From Thermoplasmata archaeon (GTDB taxonomy: Archaea; Thermoplasmatota; Thermoplasmata; Methanomassiliicoccales; Methanomethylophilaceae), in NCBI GenBank assembly GCA_015063165.1, contig SUSZ01000026.1:1-36749 (forward strand): DNA of 36,749 bases. The letters are read 5' to 3'. The notes below the pieces were generated by a model, which saw only the letters and a program-made list of their open reading frames with translations, made no database searches and was not told the DNA's origin. Below, piece by piece: positions 32,587-33,478 of the stretch. The position numbers and the translations under genes are program-made. The stretch's first letter is position 1. The number at the start of each line of letters is the position of its first letter.

Positions 32587-32645
32587 GCGGGAGGGCTCTC
32601 CCTCTCGCTATTTTAAATTATTTTTTAATTATTATTTTTAATTTT
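32587..32645 (+). terminator. gyrBA terminator
   Basis: A 9-bp GC-rich stem (32587-32595 with 32600-32608, loop CTCT) is followed by a long AT tract with TTTTTT and TTTTT runs. It ends the gyrase transcript and insulates the RNA candidates downstream. Confidence 0.7.
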
Positions 32646-32684
32646 CATTATATTTTAACATCAAATAAAACAAAAATCATTCAT

Positions 32685-32690
32685 TATAAA
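32685..32690 (+). promoter_or_regulatory. TATA box of RNA candidate 1
   Basis: TATAAA sits within TCATTATAAA, identical to the box of copy 2. It predicts a transcript start around 32710-32715, at the left edge of the conserved block. Confidence 0.6.
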
Positions 32691-32707
32691 CTCGGATCCT
32701 ATCGAGG

Positions 32708-32975
32708 AATCACCAGGAAGGAAGTCCGGTGCACAGGGCTTCCAGTGCTCCGGGCTCCGGTCCTGAGGATCTTTTGGAGGTGATACCACCCGAGAAGATG
32801 AGAAGGACCAGGAGCAAACTGGAAAACTCATCCTGGTCCTTGAGGCGGCTCGGCTCATGATCGAGCTGCTTAAGGCCGTCTTCCTTTGAGAAGGCGGACA
32901 AACCCCTTACGGTCGTCCTCGGACGGCCGGTCAAGGCTCGGGATGCCATTCTCGCTCGAAGTCTTAAAGGTATCC
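32708..32975 (+). ncRNA. Candidate structured RNA, copy 1
   Basis: This is the first of two nearly identical blocks in the 930-bp region after gyrA that has no recognisable protein gene. The core (32705-32933) differs from copy 2 at about a dozen positions; 32705-32799 is identical. Predicted hairpins on the plus strand are CCGGTGCAC/GTGCTCCGG with one U-U mismatch (32726-32753), AAGGACCAGGA/TCCTGGTCCTT (32803-32841), GCGGCTCG/CGAGCTGC (32845-32869), CCGTCTTC/GAAGGCGG (32877-32898) and GGTCGTC/GACGGCC with a CTCG tetraloop (32911-32928). Its own TATAAA box precedes it. The boundaries are approximate. A T-run near 33030 may end it. Antisense open frames exist but look incidental. Confidence 0.55.
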
Positions 32976-33084
32976 TTTCGGATTCGATCCTGTCGAAGAT
33001 TCGACTAACATAATTATACGATATAAATCGTTTTTATTTATAATAATGTTAAATTTAACATCAAAAGAAACATAATATAGTCAT

Positions 33085-33090
33085 TATAAA
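33085..33090 (+). promoter_or_regulatory. TATA box of RNA candidate 2
   Basis: TATAAA sits within TCATTATAAA, exactly 400 bp after the box of copy 1. Confidence 0.6.
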
Positions 33091-33107
33091 TCGGAATCCT
33101 ATCAAGG

Positions 33108-33375
33108 AATCACCAGGAAGGAAGTCCGGTGCACAGGGCTTCCAGTGCTCCGGGCTCCGGTCCTGAGGATCTTTTGGAGGTGATACCACCCGAGAAGATA
33201 AGAAGGACCAGGAGAAGACTGGAAAACTGACCCTGGTCCTTGAGGCGGCTCGGCTCATGATCGAGCTGCTTAAGGCCGTCTTCCTTTGAGAAGGCGGGCA
33301 AACCTATTACGGTCGTCCTTGGACGGCCGGTCAAAGTTTGTATATTCATCAGGGCTTGGTGACTTAAAAGTATCT
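33108..33375 (+). ncRNA. Candidate structured RNA, copy 2
   Basis: This copy is collinear with copy 1 at a fixed offset of 400 bp with no indels across the core. The same hairpins form. The tetraloop of the last hairpin changes from CTCG to CTTG while its stem is unchanged. One base pair at the tip of the AAGGACCAGG stem is lost (T to C at 33231). After 33334 the two copies diverge for about 25 nt, then share a CTTAAA-GTATC segment near 33363-33375. The variable 3' segment could be a target-recognition part. It ends before the promoter of the ABC importer; a TTTTTT run near 33450 is a possible terminator. Confidence 0.55.
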
Positions 33376-33478
33376 CCTGGAGTTCACTCATACTTTAAAC
33401 CGACTCATTCCCATGTTCGAACACTTTTCCCGTTTCTGTTCGATATCTTTTTTCGTAACCTGTCGCCCTTAAATACGT

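Follow-up and report, generated by a model that had tools for sequence, protein, structure and literature searches.

Small peptide genes in tandem duplication are typical of type I toxin–antitoxin families. In the txpA/RatA-type pairs of Bacillus subtilis an antisense RNA overlaps the 3′ end of the toxin mRNA, and the likewise type I pair bsrG/SR4 of the same species has this arrangement as well (PMC8309996). The hok toxin mRNA of hok/Sok takes up alternative structures that gate translation. Sok acts at the Shine–Dalgarno (SD) sequence of mok (PMC8309996). TisB of Escherichia coli, paired with istR-1, is an amphipathic helical peptide of ~30 residues with charged residues on one face and is under tight RNA-based expression control (PMC11449926). 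Type I pairs have been stated to be known only from Proteobacteria, Firmicutes and Tenericutes; msoT1/msoA1 of Microcystis, a type I-like locus outside these classic phyla, was first proposed from its anatomy (PMC12390103). No archaeal case was found in the literature searched. Here we describe a tandem repeat beside gyrA in a Thermoplasmata archaeon of the Methanomethylophilaceae (assembly GCA_015063165.1, contig SUSZ01000026.1). The window, that is, the whole stretch of DNA analysed (36,749 nucleotides, nt), is one complete contig of a 2.28-Mb genome. The repeat is real, more interesting than first described and different in nature, in that it is part of a family of very small peptide genes that are toxin-like. 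We propose, with a probability of about 0.5, that each copy is a member of a small-mRNA gene family acting as a putative type I toxin–antitoxin pair.

A conserved peptide frame in both copies

The two copies (32654–32934 and 33054–33334) are each 281 nt long, lie exactly 400 nt apart, align without gaps and are 93% identical. This repeat without insertions or deletions, the TCATTATAAA box at the same place in both copies and the tetraloop change from CTCG to CTTG (32920/33320) had been recognised in an initial annotation made from the letters alone, and all are real. The strong folding that it described is borne out by dinucleotide-shuffled controls, the folding energy lying far below them (z = −6.9 and −6.6 for the two copies). 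Its statement that there was no convincing protein gene needs correction: a conserved frame of ~32 codons is present in both copies and escaped notice through its very small size and the lack of an ATG.

Copies retrieved by DNA similarity show 28 synonymous codon changes in this frame as compared to 16.8 ± 3.4 expected from shuffling their substitutions over positions (0/2000); the two control frames give 13 and 6. A larger set, selected by frame, has 95 synonymous changes (55 ± 6 expected) and a single stop in 1095 codons of the peptide frame, against 88 and 18 stops in the other forward frames. Part of the synonymous excess may come from stems in the core. These cannot easily explain the start-codon signal, which is confined to one position: 7–9 nt downstream of GGAGG, 35 of 50 distinct members have an in-frame codon that is either ATG or differs from it by a single base (CTG 13, ATC 10, ATG 7, ATA 3, TTG 2), and the neighbouring in-frame codons do so in 8, 8, 5 and 1 of 50. 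Published genomes of the order initiate mainly at AUG and less often at GUG and UUG (PMC4153887). In distant members (G011 and G004) the GGACCAGG/CCTGGTCC stem is lost and the peptide is kept.

A noncoding structured RNA family, with the peptide frame as a by-product of conserved stems, would account for the folding, for the covarying leader helices described below, for the window copies without a start codon and for the leader being better conserved between these copies than any other part. We consider it very unlikely, as the synonymous excess is frame-specific and the frame is open, a near-perfect SD precedes it, the start-codon signal occurs at one position only, and the peptide persists where the stem has gone. 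Codon-periodic substitution in one frame, which the initial annotation had named as evidence against its own proposal, is what the alignments contain. That proposal, an undescribed archaeal small-RNA family, holds for the undescribed, archaeal, structured and duplicated part and fails for the noncoding part; the RNA of the family is a small messenger, not a noncoding RNA. Comparison among members points to a frame that codes a peptide under purifying selection, and it is very probable that members of the family are peptide genes preceded by a structured leader. The two copies in the window retain leader, SD and frame, but with ACC at the start position and a weak antisense box (see below) they may be silent or RNA-only members.

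The predicted peptide is ~30 residues long (frames of 27–35 residues) and has a charged N-terminus followed by an amphipathic helix, KDQG...LVLEAIRLLxELLR; examples are L-DDEKDQGRTAKLTLVLEAVRLLAELLRAVLL (G026, CTG start) and MPEKKENQDDRLEKIALVLLAIRVLLELLRN (G004, ATG start), and G021 and G013 also have copies that start with ATG. AlphaFold2, run on a single sequence, predicts a helix from residue 3 to 36 of the translated copy 2 stretch (predicted local distance difference test score 88.7). An in-frame TAG is found at six independent sites (Table 1), within or bordering the hydrophilic half and mostly 5–7 residues before the helix. Other stops in that part of the frame are TAA (twice, in G014 and G025); TGA does not occur there. 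PylS is present in all six genomes tested, including G013, G028 and G105, which carry TAG copies, and TAG seldom serves as a stop in the relative 'Ca. M. alvus' (1.6%, PMC4153887). Putative readthrough of the TAG with pyrrolysine is plausible.

The peptide profile locates the family at ~75 places in 24 of 147 Methanomassiliicoccales genomes, belonging to one family and four genera. A class-wide search with the peptide profile was positive in 15 of 400 genomes and gave no member outside that same family. The named-genome matches (n = 12) are all metagenome-assembled genomes of Methanomethylophilaceae/Thermoplasmata, several with records titled sheep rumen or goat abomasum. DNA similarity brings up more copies, both in the genome itself (C1 and C2) and in its congeners; they often stand in tandem at intervals of ~380–450 nt. 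Copy number is patchy, ranging from zero to a dozen between close relatives. Homologues outside the locus and covariation, whose absence would have refuted the initial annotation, are both present. The alignments show a common anatomy of a TATA-like box, a ~65-nt leader, GGAGGTGA, a core with one frame and a 3′ hairpin. The gyrA, gyrB and periplasmic-binding genes have no homologues at the other loci, and there is therefore no conserved synteny with the window. The many dispersed copies, the tandem arrays and the copies that are frameshifted or lack a start codon would also suit a mobile or selfish repeat, largely decayed and happening to carry a peptide frame. This is very unlikely: the copies keep promoter, leader, SD and frame at 65–75% identity, which decay would erase, and no common transposase or defined ends were noticed, no systematic search having been made. 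Nor did the viral contigs of IMG/VR yield a member; there the leader pattern gave 0 matches and the peptide DNA pattern 7 (one unrelated coding region without SD or leader); these contigs were additionally scanned with a periplasmic-binding-protein query.

Leader structure and its coupling to the peptide

Differences between the two window copies are graded by region, with 12 of 57 positions in the promoter, 0 of 77 in the leader and SD, 5 of 102 in the open reading frame, 4 of 41 around the 3′ hairpin and 37 of 73 in the tail. The leader and SD are thus identical although the flanks on both sides differ, which suggests selection or gene conversion on the leader.

Three helices (P1, P2 and P3) are recognised in the leader. 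P2 is of the type GGAAGTCC/GGACTTCC and P3 of the type CCGG../..CCGG, usually extended; as the two share bases and cross, they would form alternatives or a partial pseudoknot. Since MAFFT put P2 out of register in some of the 42 leaders aligned, arm-swap energies and a 19-row subset were used. Exchanging the 3′ arms among the 42 leaders weakens P2 from −14.0 to −10.5 kcal/mol and P3 from −13.3 to −9.0 kcal/mol (0/2000 for each, which is no strict probability, as the permutations ignore relatedness among leaders). Unrelated arm pairs show no effect, and P1, with little variation, gives 47/2000. The arms of P3 vary with pairing kept (CCGGC/GCCGG, CCAGCG/CGCTGG and TCTGCGCAAGC/GCTTGCGCGGA). In the 19 in-phase rows, picked for similar P2 loop length, 94.7% of cells in P2 are paired, with both-side changes in 3 of 6 counted pairs, and 98.9% in P3, with both-side changes in 3 of 5. 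Double-change cells over all three helices number 20 (6.0 ± 2.6 expected), and pairing falls to 30–54% when the partner is shifted by one to three columns. The covarying P2 and P3 directly before the SD argue for a structured mRNA leader. The compact conserved fold and the competing helices just before the SD would also be expected of a ligand-binding riboswitch controlling a small membrane peptide; as helix sequences change freely with pairing kept, few unpaired bases are invariant and the genuine leaders found precede only this peptide, we regard a riboswitch as very unlikely.

Searching the order with a covariance model built only from the leader also brought up places missed by the first peptide profile, of which 18 were inspected. 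Four (G012, G097, G104 and G008:C22) lie within long open frames and were dismissed as chance matches, and two are truncated by the end of a contig. Among the other 12, a related peptide frame is present in ten and an internal TAA in one, and one is decayed; the leader therefore belongs to the peptide. Four of these ten frames, at two independent sites, contain an in-frame TAG. At L251 (G030:C1:927047–927131, minus strand) the leader is well conserved without a good SD or peptide, which suggests a decayed or RNA-only member.

Antisense-facing promoter and the proposed type I pair

Each copy appears to be a separate transcription unit with a promoter of its own, as had been proposed in the initial annotation; tRNA promoters of related genomes have a TATA motif at a similar distance. 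A TATA matrix was built from 24 tRNA promoters, which took the place of a motif derived by expectation maximisation from regions upstream of open reading frames, as that motif had drifted. In 49 of 73 members the best antisense tRNA-type TATA site lies 65–95 nt past the stop (12.6 expected), and antisense scores exceed sense scores (Wilcoxon p 0.007). In 41 of 68 cases the gene that follows is convergent, so that a forward promoter there would usually serve nothing. These data suggest that an antisense-facing box is enriched behind family members, and an antisense RNA from the 3′ side is probable.

In the proposed mechanism, transcription would start near the P1 helix, and the leader would fold P1 plus either P2 or P3, or a partial pseudoknot. 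With P2 and P3 interleaved, folding order or a partner RNA could decide ribosome access to the SD. Translation would begin 7–9 nt further on, in most cases at a near-cognate codon (CTG, ATC or ATA) held in place by the very strong SD, and the yield should stay low. The product, whose head is the charged KDQG and whose amphipathic helix carries E/R on one face, would be suited to insert in or line a membrane, as does bacterial TisB. A backward promoter just past the 3′ hairpin would give the expected repressor, an antisense RNA that can pair with the 3′ end.

The family resembles type I toxins in its small size, amphipathic helix, restrained initiation, structured leader, tandem copies and likely 3′ antisense RNA. 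The likeness to TisB is one of style only, with no sequence relationship shown; here the pattern is Glu/Arg instead of Lys/Asp, and the family is archaeal and tandem multicopy with near-cognate starts. The predicted antisense RNA would overlap the 3′ end as in bsrG/SR4 and txpA/RatA, from which the leader, the peptide and the domain of life all differ. The gating of translation by alternative structures recalls hok/Sok, but no mok-like overlapping frame was found in the archaeal family. Proposed from anatomy like msoT1/msoA1, the family differs from that locus, which is bacterial and was tested in E. coli. More tentatively, we suggest an archaeal type I counterpart in which a pseudoknot-like switching leader and near-cognate starts (CUG/AUC/AUA behind an 8-nt SD) would restrain a membrane-active peptide, with a 3′ antisense RNA and, in some copies, a full length that depends on pyrrolysine at an in-frame UAG, which would link the peptide to methylamine metabolism.

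Several points weigh against a type I pair. About a quarter of the members, the window's included, have no recognisable start codon and a few are frameshifted, and the peptide is more charged and less hydrophobic than many type I toxins. The antisense promoter reaches a modest score, and the box is weak in the window's own copies; sense-strand TATA scores also cluster, because TATA boxes are near-palindromic. Pfam, NCBIfam and PHROGs hold no family for the peptide (one PHROG match only, at E 0.3), so that its function is read from anatomy. The reading frame, the leader helices, the coupling of leader and peptide, the start-codon position and the antisense-box enrichment are supported by comparison among members; antisense transcription, the switch, membrane action and toxicity are what we infer. 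A real small peptide gene whose product is no toxin but, for instance, a stress peptide, a secreted antimicrobial or a small membrane protein, with the leader as a translation regulator and no antisense RNA, would draw on the same coding and leader evidence, and would agree with an antisense promoter that is supported only statistically and with copies that stand alone between genes. This alternative is possible but doubtful, as tandem multiplication, patchy presence, near-cognate starts and fast turnover fit a product kept low better than a housekeeping peptide.

Features of the window and implications

Table 1. Positions of the elements in the two window copies, and of in-frame TAG sites in relatives
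Feature	Copy	Position	Strand	Remarks
TATA box CATTATAAA	1	32682..32690	+	identical in copy 2; ~30 nt before leader, as in relatives
TATA box CATTATAAA	2	33082..33090	+	same place as in copy 1
Structured leader, ending in SD region	1	32711..32787	+	leader covariance model R1 (built from 19 rows, copy 2 leader among them), 70.7 bits, E 1.5e-14 in window
Structured leader, P1/P2/P3 at +400	2	33111..33187	+	model R1 (this leader among its rows), 70.7 bits
P1, 5′ strand CAGG	1	32714..32717	+	pairs with CCTG 32762–32765; weakest helix
P2 hairpin, GGAAGTCC (32720–32727)/GGGCTTCC (32736–32743)	1	32720..32743	+	supported by arm swap and alignment
P3, CCGG (32726–32729)/CCGG (32750–32753)	1	32726..32753	+	extended by GCAC/GTGC; interleaved with P2
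Shine–Dalgarno GGAGGTGA	1	32776..32783	+	exact in 45/75 family members
Shine–Dalgarno GGAGGTGA	2	33176..33183	+	
Peptide frame TREDEKDQEQTGKLILVLEAARLMIELLKAVFL*	1	32788..32889	+	ACC at start position; family hidden Markov model (window peptides among its rows) E 5.9e-15 in own genome
Peptide frame TREDKKDQEKTGKLTLVLEAARLMIELLKAVFL*	2	33188..33289	+	ACC at start position; same model, E 2.3e-15
3′ element AAACCCCTTAC and hairpin GGTCGTC-CTCG-GACGGCC	1	32900..32930	+	kept in relatives
3′ element and hairpin, CTTG loop	2	33300..33330	+	
Candidate antisense TATA box ..CCTTTAAG..	1	32962..32972	-	aligned position, weak; top-scoring site lies further out
Candidate antisense TATA box TACTTTTAAGTC	2	33361..33372	-	family position (stop+85), low score (4.4 bits)
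In-frame TAG, relatives		G028:C35:70347; G028:C29:178711; G013:C29 (twice); G105:C31 (twice); G022:C67 (twice); G018:C3 / G030:690763		six independent sites

The repeat is preceded by gyrB and gyrA and followed by genes for a periplasmic binding protein and a FecCD permease. The Rfam search suggested by the initial annotation gave nothing credible at gathering or permissive thresholds, and the element meets no family's gathering threshold. A mir-128 match was dismissed, being below threshold, on the opposite strand and explained by hairpin symmetry. RNase P RNA (RF00373) was likewise dismissed, the genome's sole match lying elsewhere (G000:C17, 204.9 bits), in agreement with the earlier view that RNase P does not fit. 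A group II intron catalytic core (RF00029, 55.7 bits) is located at 48–124, at the extreme start of the contig, which probably broke inside the intron.

The initial annotation suggested that the 3′ ends may have diverged for different targets; this is not supported, as the 3′ part is made up of the peptide frame and the hairpin. An element of the form AAACCCCTTAC-GGCCC-TTCG-GGGCC is also located 3′ of ordinary genes in several congeners (L042, L062, L064, L041 and L045), and the hairpin element is apparently a general 3′-end element of these methanogens.

Small genes without an ATG can pass as noncoding RNA. The start codons of the family would offer a natural test of near-cognate initiation by archaeal ribosomes. 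If the proposed type I pair is true, the many copies of the family in gut methanogens would carry the type I principle into another domain of life.
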